A DNA stretch of 64,000 bases from Cyanobacterium sp. uoEpiScrs1 (GTDB taxonomy: Bacteria > Cyanobacteriota > Cyanobacteriia > Cyanobacteriales > Microcystaceae). The notes under the pieces were generated by a model. It saw only the letters and a list, made by a program, of their open reading frames with translations. It was not told the origin of the DNA and did no database searches. This document shows, piece by piece, positions 27,771 to 52,801 of the stretch (the stretch's first letter is position 1; each line of letters begins with the position of its first letter). The stretch lies in the NCBI RefSeq assembly GCF_947331815.1, contig NZ_OX373462.1, forward strand, positions 731,376-795,375, written 5' to 3'. A program made the translations under genes and the position numbers.

Positions 27771-28619
27771 TTATAGGATTCTCATGCTTAAATCTAACCA
27801 GGGTGATCGCGTAATAAGCGCACTACTTGAAATATAATCAACTCCTGTTTCTGCTACGGCTCGAATGGTTGTTAAGGTTACATTACCCGATGCTTCAATT
27901 TTTACCTTAACGTTATGATTGCGGATAAGTTGCACTGCCTGTTTCATTAAGGCTAACTCCATGTTATCCAACATAATAATATCAGCAGAACTTTTCAGTG
28001 CTTGGTTTACTTCTTGCAGAGTGGTGGTTTCTACTTCTATCGTGAGAGGATAGGGTATAGTCTGACGGATCCTCTTAATAGCTGGCTGAATACCTCCTGC
28101 TGCTTTGATATGATTATCTTTTATCATCACTGCATCATCTAACCCCATACGATGATTAATTGCTCCTCCAACCTGGGTGGCATACTTTTCTAAAACTCTT
28201 AAGCCAGGGGTTGTTTTACGAGTATCTACTAATTGGGTGGGAAGGTCTGCGATAACCTCTGTGTATTTTTTTGTGGCTGTGGCAATTCCACTCAGGCGCA
28301 TTGCTAAATTTAAGGCTACTCTTTCCCCCATCAACAATACATCCAACGGACCATTAAACGTGGCAATTATTTGTGACGGTTGTACCTGCTTCCCCTCAGC
28401 GATCTCATAGTTAACTTGTACTTGGTCGCTCAATAATTCAAATACCCTAGCAGCTATGGGTATCCCTGCAATAACCCCTGTTTCTTTGGCTAACCATTGA
28501 GCTTGTCCCCATTCTTGTAAAGATAAACCTTGAGTGGTACGGTCACCTCGCCCCACGTCTTCTCGCAACCATGTATTAAGTAATGGATCTAAAATTAGCC
28601 GATGGGGTAAAATGTTCAT
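27771..28619 (-). CDS. nadC: Quinolinate phosphoribosyltransferase (nicotinate-nucleotide pyrophosphorylase)
   Basis: NadC converts quinolinate and PRPP to nicotinate mononucleotide in de novo NAD synthesis. The 282-residue protein has LREDVGRGDRTT near residue 18, ERVALNLAMRLSGIAT near 120, VDTRKTTPGLRVLEKYA near 150, GGAINHRMGLDDAVMIKDNH near 170, and the C-terminal IEASGNVTLTTIRA then GVDYISSSALI. All expected catalytic regions (R, K, H, K) are present and the length is standard. It lies 289 bp downstream of the trpB start codon on the same strand; cotranscription is unlikely given the order and gap. Confidence 0.96.
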   Translation of the reverse strand: MNILPHRLILDPLLNTWLREDVGRGDRTTQGLSLQEWGQAQWLAKETGVIAGIPIAARVFELLSDQVQVNYEIAEGKQVQPSQIIATFNGPLDVLLMGERVALNLAMRLSGIATATKKYTEVIADLPTQLVDTRKTTPGLRVLEKYATQVGGAINHRMGLDDAVMIKDNHIKAAGGIQPAIKRIRQTIPYPLTIEVETTTLQEVNQALKSSADIIMLDNMELALMKQAVQLIRNHNVKVKIEASGNVTLTTIRAVAETGVDYISSSALITRSPWLDLSMRIL

Positions 28620-29487
28620 AATCTAAATTAGTAATTGAAACTAAAAAAATAGGGGTGATAGATACGAGGAGCTGACAGTTTTTATAGATTTAGACTATTT
28701 TTTAGTTTAAATACAAAATGGCTCGGTATGGTAGCACCACTAATAAGTTAATTTTTTGCTTAATTGTTGAAAATTAATTTTTTATAATAAATTTTCTTAA
28801 ATTTACTTTACAATCAACTCGGAGTAATTGGCAAGAGTATTTATCCAATCTATCATTGAATCTTACGTAAATAGGTTAGGCACTAAAAAAGGAAGGGTCG
28901 CTCTATAATCTTAGATTGAGTTAAAAATTCAAACCCAACATATTGTAATTCAAATACAATACCTTCTATTAAATTATTCATAGTAATGATGATGAATTTT
29001 AATATACTTTTCTTCTTAAATAAATTTGATTTTTATAATTTTATTCCTTATATATTTCTCTTAAGAAGAAACGATTTTTTTCTATTTTATATCTAGCAAT
29101 CACTATATTTTAACTAAATTTCTATGTCTTGCCTATTCAAATTAACTTATTTAGCATATATGTTTGCGTATCTCTTCTAGACTAACTTATTAAAAATAAT
29201 ATAGACTCTCTTTTATTAAAATAACTTAAATTGTAGAATACATTCAGGAAAATATTCTGAAAACTAGTTAATTATTAATCTAAGTATATCTAGTGTATAA
29301 CAGCCGTTACTGATGATTTTATATACAACACAAAATAATTGCATATTTAGAACAGAATTAGATAATAGATGATATACTTCAATAGATTTAGAGCATACAT
29401 AATTTATAAAAAAGCATATATGATCCATAAATAGGGAATTATCATACAATGTTCATTATAAACAGAATGTGGCTCATCTTATAAATA
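28620..29487. other. AT-rich spacer upstream of cnfR
   Basis: The first 870 bp of a 1.2 kb gap between nadC and the divergent cnfR. It should contain the nadC promoter. An open frame at 29264-29449 on the minus strand has AT-driven composition and is not supported. No RNA gene seen. Confidence 0.45.
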
Positions 29488-29760
29488 ACATTGGGAACAG
29501 GAGTAGTTTCACTGTACGGTATGAATGGGGAATAAAGTGAACTTTTAGGATTGCATATGTCTTTGGTTAAATGGATTGTTATGCTCCTTGATGTTGTTCA
29601 CTAATTACCTAAAATGACTGTACTCAGCGATTGTGGTGGTCGCTTTATAGTTTTTTTGATTGTAATAGATTGGCTCATCGGTTTCTGGTTATTAGAATCA
29701 GGGGATAATCTCCTAAGTATAGAATTATAGGGTGATTTTCTGGTTGGTATATGAGTATAT
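29488..29760 (+). pseudogene. Probable remnant of a small membrane-protein gene
   Basis: A single plus-strand frame reads protein-like sequence for about 90 codons, interrupted by four stop codons. Segments are LGTGVVSLYGMNGE, ELLGLHMSLVKWIVMLLDVV, then KMTVLSDCGGRF and IVFLIVIDWLIGFWLLESG, which look like membrane helices. Base composition here is clearly less AT-rich than the flanking spacer. This fits a recently inactivated membrane-protein gene. I do not recognise the family. It ends about 100 bp upstream of cnfR. Confidence 0.45.
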
Positions 29761-29861
29761 TATGTCAACCAAACTAGATAAGCAAAATTGATGTTATGTC
29801 ACATTCATCTTAGATTTAAGATGCTAATTTTTTTACAAATTACAATTCTGCAGAAAGTACT

Positions 29862-31463
29862 ATGTCCTATACAATTGCTAACAGTTGTCCAAGCTGTACT
29901 CCTTGTCAAATTAAATGTCCTACTGGGGCAATCCAAATCAAGAATGGAGAGTATCTAATTGATCAAGGACTATGTAACAATTGTGAAGGCTACTTCTCGG
30001 AACCTCAATGTATTGTTCAATGTCCTATCAGTAGTCCTCTTCCTGTTCAAGCAAAAAAAGGTAGATATAAAAGTGTTTCAAGAATAGAAACTTCTGATGA
30101 GCTTTTTGTCAATGGAAATAATACCCCGTTTGCATCATCAATGGTTATTTGGGAGGGATGTAATGTATTAACTAGTGCAGCGGTTTTACCTTGGGAAAAA
30201 GACAATGATGGGGCATTATTTTATCAGCGAGAGGTTAAACAAGGCCGTGGGACAATGATCTTCCGATTAAATGACAGTTTAGAATCGGCTTCCCCTGAAG
30301 AGTGTAACTATGCATCCAATATCTCTGACTTAAAAACAATTGATATTCGTTCTGCAAGTTTACACCTTATTTTTGCGGCTTATGCAACTACATTAGATAA
30401 ACCTTGGGAGCAAAAGTTTATTATTAGTGACCAACAAATTGAAGATTATTTAGGTTTAGATAAGCGAAAAGATCTTAGTAAAGCGACAAAACTATCGTTA
30501 ATCAAAACATTAGTACAACAGCCAAGTCAACTTAGAGTCGCAGTTAATTGGCCAAAACAGGGAAAAGTTGAGGGATTTACGGTTTCTGAAAGTCCCCTAT
30601 GGCATATTTTAGATATTCAACACCATTTCCAGCAAGACGATTTAGGATGTCAACATTTAATTGGACTAACCTTTACTATAAAACCGGGACTATGGGCAAA
30701 ATATTTTTTAAATAAACAAGGTTACAAACGGCGAATTGCTTTTTATCAATATGGGTCTTTACCTAAGTTTCTTTTAACAACAGTAATGAGTATTTGGCAG
30801 CAACATCAAGGAGCAGTTCGGATCATGTTGTGGTTGCTATTTAAAAGCAAAATGGGTAGAAAACAATGTTTAACAGTCTCTACCTTAATGCGAGTAGCTT
30901 ATGGCCAAGGAAAAATCAATCAGTCAAACTTACAACGGGAACACAGAAAGCGACTTATCCGTTCTTTCGAAAGTGACCTCGAAGTGCTAAACCATTATGG
31001 TATTAAAGCCGTTTTCGATCCTGTTTCGTATCCTGAAACTATTCGGCCTATGTGGGTTAAATTGGCGGACTTACCCGATGATGCTGATGAGGCCTTAGAC
31101 TTTTGGATTAATGACGGTTCCCAAGAAAATCGTGTTACTGATGCTGGTCGTCGTGGTAAATGGAATCAGTTAATGAAAGCGCGCATTCGTAATTTTGAAT
31201 TACCTTTGGAATGGGAAGAGCAACTAGCTAAATTTGAACGCAAAAAACAACAACTTACCAATCGGAAAAGCCGTTCTAAAAAATTATCCGATCTTACAGC
31301 TGAACAAATTCTGGCTGCCAGACAGCGTCAGGGAATGAGTCAAAGGGCTTTAGCGGAGAAATTGGGCAAAAGTCAAAGTTGGATTCGAGATTTAGAAAGA
31401 GGACGTTTTTCTGCAAAACCTGATGATAGAGCTATCTTACAGAATGTGTTGGGATTAAGGTAA
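29862..31463 (+). CDS. cnfR: CnfR/PatB-type transcriptional activator of nif genes
   Basis: A 533-residue regulator with an N-terminal ferredoxin-like domain and a C-terminal helix-turn-helix, the architecture of cyanobacterial CnfR and Anabaena PatB. Cysteines C9, C12, C15, C19 and C38, C41, C50, C54 form two [4Fe-4S] motifs, probably oxygen sensing. The C-terminus, about residues 477-533, reads as a Cro/C1-type domain (ARQRQGMSQRALAEKLGKSQ, then WIRDLERGRF). In Leptolyngbya boryana CnfR activates nitrogenase genes under low oxygen and nitrogen depletion. No nif gene is in the window, so it acts at a distance. The frame and both cofactor motifs are intact, strongly suggesting an active nitrogen-fixing organism. 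The ATG is preceded by only a weak ribosome binding site. Confidence 0.92.
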   Translation: MSYTIANSCPSCTPCQIKCPTGAIQIKNGEYLIDQGLCNNCEGYFSEPQCIVQCPISSPLPVQAKKGRYKSVSRIETSDELFVNGNNTPFASSMVIWEGCNVLTSAAVLPWEKDNDGALFYQREVKQGRGTMIFRLNDSLESASPEECNYASNISDLKTIDIRSASLHLIFAAYATTLDKPWEQKFIISDQQIEDYLGLDKRKDLSKATKLSLIKTLVQQPSQLRVAVNWPKQGKVEGFTVSESPLWHILDIQHHFQQDDLGCQHLIGLTFTIKPGLWAKYFLNKQGYKRRIAFYQYGSLPKFLLTTVMSIWQQHQGAVRIMLWLLFKSKMGRKQCLTVSTLMRVAYGQGKINQSNLQREHRKRLIRSFESDLEVLNHYGIKAVFDPVSYPETIRPMWVKLADLPDDADEALDFWINDGSQENRVTDAGRRGKWNQLMKARIRNFELPLEWEEQLAKFERKKQQLTNRKSRSKKLSDLTAEQILAARQRQGMSQRALAEKLGKSQSWIRDLERGRFSAKPDDRAILQNVLGLR

Positions 31464-32362
31464 AAATTAAAATAATGGGCATATTTATGCGACAGTTTCT
31501 ATCAAGAAATGTCAGTGTTATTTAATACTTTGTTATTCAACAATAATATCGCCAGCGATTATCGTTCGTAAGTTAAAGTTATTTCAGTGGTATTTTATAT
31601 AATTACAAATCAATAGCTCAAAAACAATCAATGAAAAATCCCACTAGTTTACACGGAAGGATTACTTGAGAATATTGCTTGTCTATAATTTTTATGAAGC
31701 CATCACCCGTGGTGGTTTAGTAAAAATAATTCATCTAGCAGAGATTTGTCATGCCCAAGTCACAACCAATCGTATTTTATCCCTCAGATATATACTCTTT
31801 TTCCTGTCTGAGTATTTTAAGTTTGGCGGATATTTAAAGCAATATCATTAGCATTGATAATAATCACTTTTTGTAAATTAGCGACTTTACTTAGTAATTA
31901 ATAAACTAATTATTAGCCTCATAGCCAGTGTCAAAATGATTTCAATGGAGGTGCTACTAATTCTATGTTCTAAACGACAATAAGTAATTTAAGTGGCTAA
32001 GTCAGAGGCTGGTTCAATAATTAAGGCAAAACCTATCTATTAACTAGCTTAAATTTTCTAAATTATAGACTTGATTTTAAACAACCTATGGTAGCGACGC
32101 AATATTATCAAAACTAATTTTTGCGGTTATCAGGATAAATATAAAGACAATAATGGTATCAAGTATAATCATTATCTTACAGTCATTAATATATTAGCAG
32201 TTTAAGTAATAAAGTAAAAATATTTTTCTAAAAGTATATAAAAATAAATTAATTAACCTATAATATTATATTATCTTCAGGTTTAATAAAATTTTAAAAA
32301 TAGCTAACCTATCAAAGATTTTTATCAATATTTGTATTTTAGTATTTAAATTAGTTAGACAA
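31464..32362. other. Eroded 900-bp spacer after cnfR
   Basis: Some stretches, especially 31640-32110, are less AT-rich than typical spacers and give short protein-like pieces in alternating frames, including a 61-codon open frame at 31666-31851 (RILLVYNFYEAITRGG...). I could not join these into one recognisable protein. The region is probably a degraded gene rather than regulatory DNA. The hemW promoter should lie near its end. Confidence 0.4.
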
Positions 32363-33607
32363 ATGAAACTAATTAATCTTCCAAAGTCTGCTTATATCCA
32401 TATTCCTTTTTGTCGTCGCCGTTGCTATTATTGTGACTTTCCAATATCGGTATTGGGAAACAAAACCGATATTTATCAATCTTCTTCTATTGTTGAATAC
32501 GTGGAAGTATTATGTAAAGAAATTGCAGTTACCCCCTATCAAAATAGTCCTCTAGAAACTGTTTTTTTTGGAGGAGGAACTCCATCTTTATTGCCTCCAT
32601 TTTGTTTGGAAAAAATTTTAACTATTTTGGATAAATATTTAGGGATTATTCCTGACGCAGAAATTTCTTTAGAGATAGATCCTGGAACTTTTAGTCTTAA
32701 ACAATTACAAAATTATCAAAGTGCGGGAGTTAATAGAGTCAGTTTAGGTTGTCAATCTTTTCAAGATAAATTTTTAGAAAATTGTGGAAGAATTCATCGA
32801 GTTGATGATATTTACAGAGCTGTAGATTGGATAAATCAAGTTAATTTTAAGAATTTTAATCTTGACCTGATATCAGGGTTACCTTATCAGACTTTAGAAG
32901 ATTGGCAACTTTCTTTAGAAACTGCGATAAGAATTAAACCATCCCATTTATCTTGTTATGATTTGGTTCTTGAACCAGTTACTGTGTTTGGGAAACGATA
33001 TCAAGCTGGAAAATATCCATTGCCTGCTGATGAAACAACTGCAGCAATGTATCGTCTTGGTCAACAATTATTAACTGAAGCAGGATATCAACATTATGAA
33101 ATTTCTAATTATGCTAAGCCAGGGTATCAGTGTCGTCATAACTGTGTTTATTGGAAAAACATGTCTTATTATGGCTTTGGAATGGGGGCAGCAAGTTATA
33201 TAAATAGACAACGCTTTACTCGCCCTCATACCCGAAAAAATTATTATTCATGGGTAAATCAGCTGTCACAATCAGATGGTTTTATTGATTGTCCTCAATT
33301 ATCTAAAATAGACATCTTGCTAGAAAGTTTAATGCTAAGATTGAGGTTGTCTGAGGGAATAAATTTATCTTTAATAAGAGTAAATTTTGGAGAAGAGATA
33401 ACTGCTAAGATAGTATCTTGTCTATTTACTTATTATCAAGATAACTTAATTAGTTTTACTGACGAGCAAAAAAATAAGATAGTTTTAAAGGATTTTAATA
33501 CAATACCAGAGAATACTAATTTAAAATTAAATGATCCTGAAGGCTTTTTATTTTCTAATACTATTCTAGCAACTTTATTCTATCAACTAAAAAGTAATCT
33601 TGACTAG
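32363..33607 (+). CDS. hemW: HemW/HemN-like radical SAM protein
   Basis: Radical SAM protein of the coproporphyrinogen III oxidase-like family, most likely HemW, the heme-binding chaperone. The protein opens with AYIHIPFCRRRCYYCDF; C17, C21 and C24 form the CxxxCxxC cluster motif. FFGGGTPSLLP follows near residue 72, then LEIDPGTF, GVNRVSLGCQSFQD near 125, and DLISGLPYQTLEDW near 170. The CxxxCxxC spacing without a fourth cysteine fits HemW rather than true HemN. Length 414 residues is normal. It stands alone. Confidence 0.88.
   Translation: MKLINLPKSAYIHIPFCRRRCYYCDFPISVLGNKTDIYQSSSIVEYVEVLCKEIAVTPYQNSPLETVFFGGGTPSLLPPFCLEKILTILDKYLGIIPDAEISLEIDPGTFSLKQLQNYQSAGVNRVSLGCQSFQDKFLENCGRIHRVDDIYRAVDWINQVNFKNFNLDLISGLPYQTLEDWQLSLETAIRIKPSHLSCYDLVLEPVTVFGKRYQAGKYPLPADETTAAMYRLGQQLLTEAGYQHYEISNYAKPGYQCRHNCVYWKNMSYYGFGMGAASYINRQRFTRPHTRKNYYSWVNQLSQSDGFIDCPQLSKIDILLESLMLRLRLSEGINLSLIRVNFGEEITAKIVSCLFTYYQDNLISFTDEQKNKIVLKDFNTIPENTNLKLNDPEGFLFSNTILATLFYQLKSNLD

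Positions 33608-52438: not shown

Positions 52439-52801
<363 letters not shown>

Follow-up and report, generated by a model that had tools for sequence, protein, structure and literature searches.

The CnfR/PatB architecture, a two-cluster ferredoxin joined to an XRE-type helix-turn-helix, has been reported in Anabaena and Leptolyngbya, and so have CnfR cis elements upstream of nifB (PMC8510180). A TGAGTATA motif together with an extended -10 had earlier been noted upstream of nifB in Anabaena (PMC4284476). For the diazoplasts of diatoms, PMC11070190 reports that CnfR, NtcA and PII are kept in all genomes sequenced by then, and the same source describes nitrogen fixation shown experimentally for a related diazoplast. 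The presence of CnfR in diazoplasts is already published, and the present finding mostly confirms it. What is added beyond this published retention is a set of selection tests, which address possible relaxation of cnfR as raised with the original prediction, and a map of promoter and putative operators.

The window analysed is a stretch of 64,000 nucleotides (G000:C1:731376-795375) from a single-contig genome, G000, of 2,483,960 bases (2.48 Mb). In a phylogenetic tree G000 forms the sister branch to the diazoplasts G001, G003 and G005, and its genome is smaller than theirs. By this placement the source genome is very likely that of a Rhopalodiacean diatom diazoplast, a nitrogen-fixing endosymbiont with a shrinking genome, and the word symbiont in the original prediction was well founded.

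The cnfR (patB-type) coding sequence lies at 29862..31463 on the plus strand and encodes an intact protein of 533 aa, running from ATG to TAA with no internal stop. Its N-terminal ferredoxin-like part (aa 1-61; 29862..30044, plus strand) holds eight cysteines at residues 9, 12, 15, 19, 38, 41, 50 and 54, arranged as CxxCxxCxxxCP and CxxC(8)CxxxCP, that is as two 4Fe-4S motifs. The C-terminus (aa 484-531; 31311..31454, plus strand) carries a conserved XRE-type helix-turn-helix motif, matched in Pfam by HTH_3 (residues 484-521, score 4.1e-8) and HTH_31. All eight cluster cysteines were invariant in an alignment of 17 orthologues, as was a ninth (C100); in the same alignment 166 of the 533 columns were invariant, and the recognition region SQRxLAxxxGKSQSWxRDxExGR was mostly so. 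NCBIfam also returned ferredoxin and helix-turn-helix matches, all of them sub-threshold. The protein is 94-95% identical to those of G001, G003 and G005, where the neighbouring genes are also the same. Domain architecture, invariant cysteines and co-occurrence with nif support its assignment as a CnfR-type protein, as had been proposed from the preserved cluster cysteines and helix-turn-helix.

A full-length CnfR match, far beyond chance, was identified in 19 of 39 genomes searched, its own included. Full-length cnfR was present in 18 of the 19 genomes with a near full-length nifB, the exception being G004, an 87%-complete draft, and in none of the 18 genomes without nifB. In two intermediate genomes, G028 and G031, the NifB matches are only partial, at 47% identity, and the cnfR matches are full-length at 48% and partial at 42% identity, respectively. 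In the UCYN-A-like genomes G013 and G021 (1.4-1.5 Mb), cnfR is kept and no match to trpB or nadC was found.

The nif cluster of G000 occupies about G000:C1:284174-309897, which rules out an absence of nif genes from the genome. Matches above curated cut-offs were obtained for nifT, nifV, a cysE-type nifP, nifB, nifS, nifU, nifH, nifD, nifK, nifN, nifX and nifW, and also for ferredoxin III, a 2Fe-2S ferredoxin, a NifX-associated protein and proteins of the Asr1405 and HesB/IscA types. Two others, hesA-like and fdxN-like (the latter a ferredoxin), fell below cut-off, nifE was placed by gene order and open frame only, and a candidate for nifZ gave no match at E<=1e-10. Both ntcA and glnB are present in the genome, the latter, encoding P-II, a regulator upstream of NtcA/CnfR, lying in the same window at 52439..52777 on the minus strand, 21 kb from cnfR, with a listed frame that starts at TTG. 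A genome search for the cluster had been suggested as a check on the claim that the symbiont still fixes nitrogen; the cluster is there, and fixation in this symbiont follows from the sequence only indirectly.

The spacer between nifP and nifB, of ~1.1 kb, is conserved in blocks in 10 of 12 genomes aligned and much less so in two that are UCYN-A-like, and by our reading of the alignment its conserved elements are arranged as mirror images. The 13-mer TGAGTNCATAAAT occurs exactly twice in the 2.48 Mb, at 287422 on the minus strand facing nifP and at 288048 on the plus strand facing nifB, against one genomic match for the same sequence written backwards, and in five relatives 9 of its 13 matches fall within this spacer. 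A conserved extended -10 (TGnTATAA) stands 168 nt before the nifB ATG. As candidate CnfR operators, the two copies of TGAGTNCATAAAT, a motif derived in this analysis, come first, and in this sense putative CnfR sites are present near nifB. That CnfR is instead retained for another target, for example a redox regulon, with nif control secondary, would fit the position of cnfR beside nadC/hemW in these genomes rather than beside nif, but given the almost perfect co-occurrence of cnfR with nifB and the confinement of the exact 13-mer to the nif spacer in G000, we hold it to be very improbable.

The original prediction had observed that no nif genes adjoin cnfR, and indeed nifB lies 473 kb away. 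The old divergent neighbour of cnfR is nadC (27771..28619, minus strand). Since cnfR also stands beside nadC in G002 and G014, and is separated from nifB by 456 kb in G006, the distance between cnfR and nif is ancestral rather than a scar of decay. It had also been stated that the neighbouring spacers look like dead genes, and this is true of some of them in part. GC content is low in the six spacers measured (22-34%, against 33.6% for the window), identity to the other three diazoplasts is as low as 43-61% at 28901-29400, and a small relic region lies between cnfR and hemW (31826..32036, no strand assigned) as four pieces of 23-48 aa in common with sister-genome ORFs, the longer sister ORF having no Pfam match. 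For a 61-aa ORF of the window (31666-31851), matching DNA (44-57%) is also present in two sister genomes. The search with relatives' ORFs gave two further matches, which extend the neighbouring proS and trpB at their N-termini, and its reversed control gave 0 matches. A recognisable dead gene in the nadC-cnfR spacer was rejected, as tblastn with the ORFs of five relative loci revealed no gene relic there. The ~460 bp directly upstream of cnfR (29401-29861) are 75-89% identical to those of the other diazoplasts, and with conservation of this block the immediate flanks have decayed only in part.

This upstream block (29437..29861, plus strand), which aligns to G001, G003, G005 and the larger-genome G002, comprises the promoter and a predicted leader of ~360 nt. 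At 29450..29464 (plus strand) it contains an NtcA-like box, TGTTCATTATAAACA, of the form TGT-N9-ACA and not the canonical GTA-N8-TAC. The core of the box, GTTCATTRTAAAC, is present in 8 of 17 cnfR upstream regions, including that of G006 with its different neighbours, and is missing from the other 9. All six same-genus genomes searched (G004 left out) contain a longer 18-mer exactly once, always upstream of cnfR; its matches elsewhere with 2 mismatches are not far above control level. A predicted -10 box, TAACAT (TAN3T; 29486..29491, plus strand), lies 22 nt after the box core, and this spacing is 22-23 nt in all eight genomes having the core among the 17 examined. The box is neither of the canonical NtcA sites, GTA-N8-TAC and GTN10AC. 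It reads GT-N9-AC, and because it is one base short of GTN10AC, control of cnfR by NtcA is only suggested: the layout is that of an NtcA-activated promoter with a non-canonical site. In the predicted leader (29498-29861), a core GATTGTGGTGGTCG is conserved in the four diazoplasts and G002. The only Rfam RNA found in the window was one tRNA.

Selection on cnfR was assessed in two ways. Pairwise dN/dS among the four diazoplasts (six pairs) ranged from 0.037 to 0.064. A two-ratio codon model with nine taxa and the diazoplast clade as foreground was then fitted for only four genes (cnfR, nifB, trpB and hemW; nadC was left out). For cnfR, omega was 0.047 in the foreground and 0.069 in the background (p=0.026, a modest value), and thus lower, and relaxed selection on cnfR was rejected. 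Values for nifB were 0.049 and 0.060 (p=0.19). Two genes proved to be relaxed in the diazoplasts, namely trpB (0.079/0.049, p=0.008) and hemW, the HemW-type radical SAM gene that follows cnfR at 32363-33607 (0.134/0.087, p=0.004). These results support purifying selection on nitrogenase regulation through cnfR, and the comparison of dN/dS with relatives that had been proposed as a check bears out the earlier statement that this regulation is under selection.

They also bear on the idea that cnfR is a frozen remnant, left by chance or by the youth of the symbiosis, with nif expression in diazoplasts being constitutive without CnfR. Expression of nifK is described as constitutive over the day in the E. 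clementina diazoplast (PMC11070190), and genome reduction in spheroid bodies is said to be still in progress (PMC11131595), both of which would agree with such a remnant. With a dN/dS of 0.037-0.064 and an omega below that of the other relatives, in contrast to the relaxed trpB and hemW, with cnfR kept by four diazoplasts and both UCYN-A-like genomes, and with its promoter block and the spacer motifs conserved, we consider a remnant highly implausible. The preferred reading, to which we give a probability of about 0.88, is that the locus encodes a functional CnfR orthologue in a Rhopalodiacean diazoplast that would switch the nif operons, with a candidate small RNA layered on this control.

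The candidate small RNA comes from an sRNA-like element in the nifP-nifB spacer, between the two putative operators (G000:C1:287744-287820; L190:1501-1577). In it a promoter-like block precedes an arm (GAATTGAATTCCGTGACAG), which is followed by a hairpin and then a T-run. The predicted RNA (287764-287819) would be 56 nt long, its start being a guess based on where conservation lies. Over 13 nt the arm is the complement of CACGGAATTCAAT(G) at the start of nifB, and the nifP start in G000 bears the same motif. When 85 ORFs of at least 100 aa from the nif region and the window were ranked by duplex energy, the starts of nifP and nifB came first and second. Against nifP, the best target in G000, the most extreme of 1000 shuffled arms reached -21.1 kcal/mol (median -9.1), compared with -21.8 kcal/mol for the real arm. 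RNAalifold preferred a 5' structure that included the promoter, and a hairpin-only model was used instead. In the hairpin alignment 89% of cells were paired and no pair had changed on both sides; the claim of covariation made here accordingly concerns the arm and its target and not the hairpin. Assignment to an Rfam family was rejected, as the spacer gave one sub-threshold chance match and none at gathering score, and no plasmid homologues of the element were found. On this evidence the spacer element is a candidate small RNA acting on nifB translation.

Using a covariance model, the element was identified in 51 of 388 genomes of the class, including unicellular ones (56 matches, with the stricter filters that apply at that size). 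At 26 of 30 of the loci examined it was located just upstream of nifB, the other four being in G012, G020, G367 and G165. Within the 39-genome set it was found in 14 of the 19 genomes with near full-length nifB, the five without it being G013, G018, G021, G027 and G034, and in four (G007, G012, G017 and G020) of 17 nifB-less relatives searched, the 18th, G032, having been left out. In G015 and G022 the element detected is ~3 kb away on the upstream side of nifB, and closer to the gene there is no more than a partial look-alike. At the UCYN-A-like loci L014, L015, L053 and L054 the nifB start motif CACGGAATTAAATG is kept and the spacer element is absent.

A pattern scan of named genomes yielded 104 stretches, of which 80 were examined. 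At 62 of these nifB follows 459-928 nt downstream, in Crocosphaera, Cyanothece, Nostoc, Fischerella, Chlorogloeopsis, Lyngbya and others. The remaining 18 have no visible nifB downstream: seven lie too close to the locus edge for a nifB to show, two are non-cyanobacterial chance matches and nine, one of which has only ~0.9 kb left, have none. Two Microcystis are among the seven edge loci and four among the nine. The Microcystis copies (L276, L283, L298, L309, L312 and L313) keep the element with a CCGT-type arm. This genus is not known to have nif, and the element would therefore need another target there. G000 holds a second copy at G000:C1:162428-162500 (L236), also present in G001, G002, G003, G005, G008 and G014. 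In G000, G001, G002, G003, G005 and G014 the arm and terminator of this copy are unchanged and its promoter is another one. In G000, G003 and G005 it is flanked by a 582-aa ORF and by a gene that, by eye, we take to be peroxiredoxin-like, with a presumably Fur-like gene one further. As there are copies without nifB as well as nifB genomes without the element, such an RNA must have other targets or predate its nif role. An alternative is that the spacer RNA is an iron-sparing, IsaR1-like RNA acting on an Fe-S protein; since copies exist without nif neighbours, in Microcystis among others, nifB cannot be the element's sole reason.

Arm and target vary together. With an arm of ..TTCCGT, ..TTTCGC or ..TTTCGG, the nifB start mostly has ACGGAA.., GCGAAA.. 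or CCGAAA.., respectively. The two variable arm-target pairs are each Watson-Crick in 60 of 62 loci. When arms were swapped among loci, 0 of 2000 swaps reached the real pairing total, although the gain was small (12.66 matches of 15, compared with 12.03), most of the arm being fixed by the scan pattern; the start chosen for each locus was moreover the in-frame ATG best fitting its own arm, which favours own pairing. The 62 loci are related, so double-change events were counted instead, and at least four arm-target double changes could be read by hand. For the first pair, one deep branch alters both sides, and for the second, three pair types need at least two double changes, one of them on that deep branch. 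In the diazoplast G003, arm and target have changed together at a third position. Twelve of the 62 named loci, of the Nostoc type, have a C in mid-target that the arm does not follow. Among 48 loci examined, nifP bears the target in 19 of the 22 CCGT-arm loci with nifP upstream and in G333, and, G333 apart, no nifP target was found with other arm types. The nifB target motif of G333 is 15 nt upstream of the present ATG.

The same pattern could arise without any RNA, if the arm and the nifB start were two inverted sites of one DNA-binding protein whose specificity had drifted by lineage, since both sites, as duplex DNA within a single spacer, could co-vary by way of a protein; the start motif CACGGAATTAAATG in UCYN-A-like genomes that lack the element would also be compatible with this. 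A hairpin and T-run directly after the arm, a complementarity that overlaps the start codon, and the retention of arm and terminator under another promoter in the second genomic copy are not what such sites would lead one to expect, and at G108, L263 and L273, by our own reading, the target is displaced by 4 nt and is still largely complementary. We therefore judge a protein-site origin unlikely. It is more probable than not, in our estimate, that an undescribed small RNA of ~50-60 nt is encoded upstream of nifB beside the CnfR operators, with a 5' arm that would pair with the nifB start, and with that of nifP too in the diazoplast/Rippkaea/Crocosphaera lineage, and that has co-evolved with it. 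Nitrogenase assembly may thus have a second lock, a post-transcriptional one, which NtcA would probably open when nitrogen is exhausted and which is kept in diazoplasts, with compensatory change in one of them.

Taken together, these elements could be assembled into the following scheme. The two ferredoxin-type 4Fe-4S clusters of CnfR would sense low oxygen or redox state, and its XRE domain would bind the operators in the divergent nifP-nifB spacer and so turn on the nif operons in both directions. Expression of cnfR itself would be driven by the conserved promoter, with its NtcA-like box 22-23 nt before the -10 box. Under nitrogen sufficiency the small RNA would cover the start region and start codon of nifB and act as a brake on translation of nifB, and of nifP. 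Under nitrogen need NtcA would bind over the small RNA promoter, so that synthesis stops, and would also activate cnfR; once oxygen is low, CnfR may then switch on nifB and nifP. Judged by eye, the small RNA promoters of the CCGT-arm group contain a match to GTN10AC and those of the Nostoc type do not.

The spacer-element candidate matters more than the confirmation of cnfR. If true, conserved braking of nifB by an RNA would alter the picture of cyanobacterial nif expression, and the element would be a part that engineers of nif clusters may have unknowingly transferred or cut off. No mention of a small RNA on cyanobacterial nifB was found in PMC7007895, PMC3141674, PMC7281752, PMC4734099, PMC6166021, PMC3610870, PMC6202907 or PMC12090762, subscription papers and supplements apart. 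The nearest described RNA is NsrR1, the nitrogen-stress-repressed sRNA of Nostoc, which according to PMC6166021 has an NtcA-type motif over its promoter, an intrinsic terminator and pairing near the starts of nitrogen genes, features in which the element is alike. As described there, however, NsrR1 is ~112 nt long and occurs in heterocystous strains and close relatives only, whereas the element is ~56 nt, lies before nifB and reaches unicellular lineages. Identity with NsrR1 was rejected on the length and range given in that description, and the string nif occurs 0 times in the main text of the NsrR1 paper.

With regard to the protein, the locus resembles the CnfR/PatB systems known from Leptolyngbya boryana (CnfR), Anabaena variabilis (CnfR1 and CnfR2) and Nostoc (PatB) in its domains, in its co-occurrence with nif, and in a nifB/nifP spacer with conserved upstream elements and an extended -10. 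It differs in position, as cnfR of L. boryana is within a 50-kb nif cluster (PMC5943405) while that of the window adjoins nadC/hemW at 473 kb from nif. Compared with CnfR of other Epithemia/Rhopalodia diazoplasts, it is the same type of protein with the same neighbours, to which evidence from dN/dS, promoter and operators has here been added.
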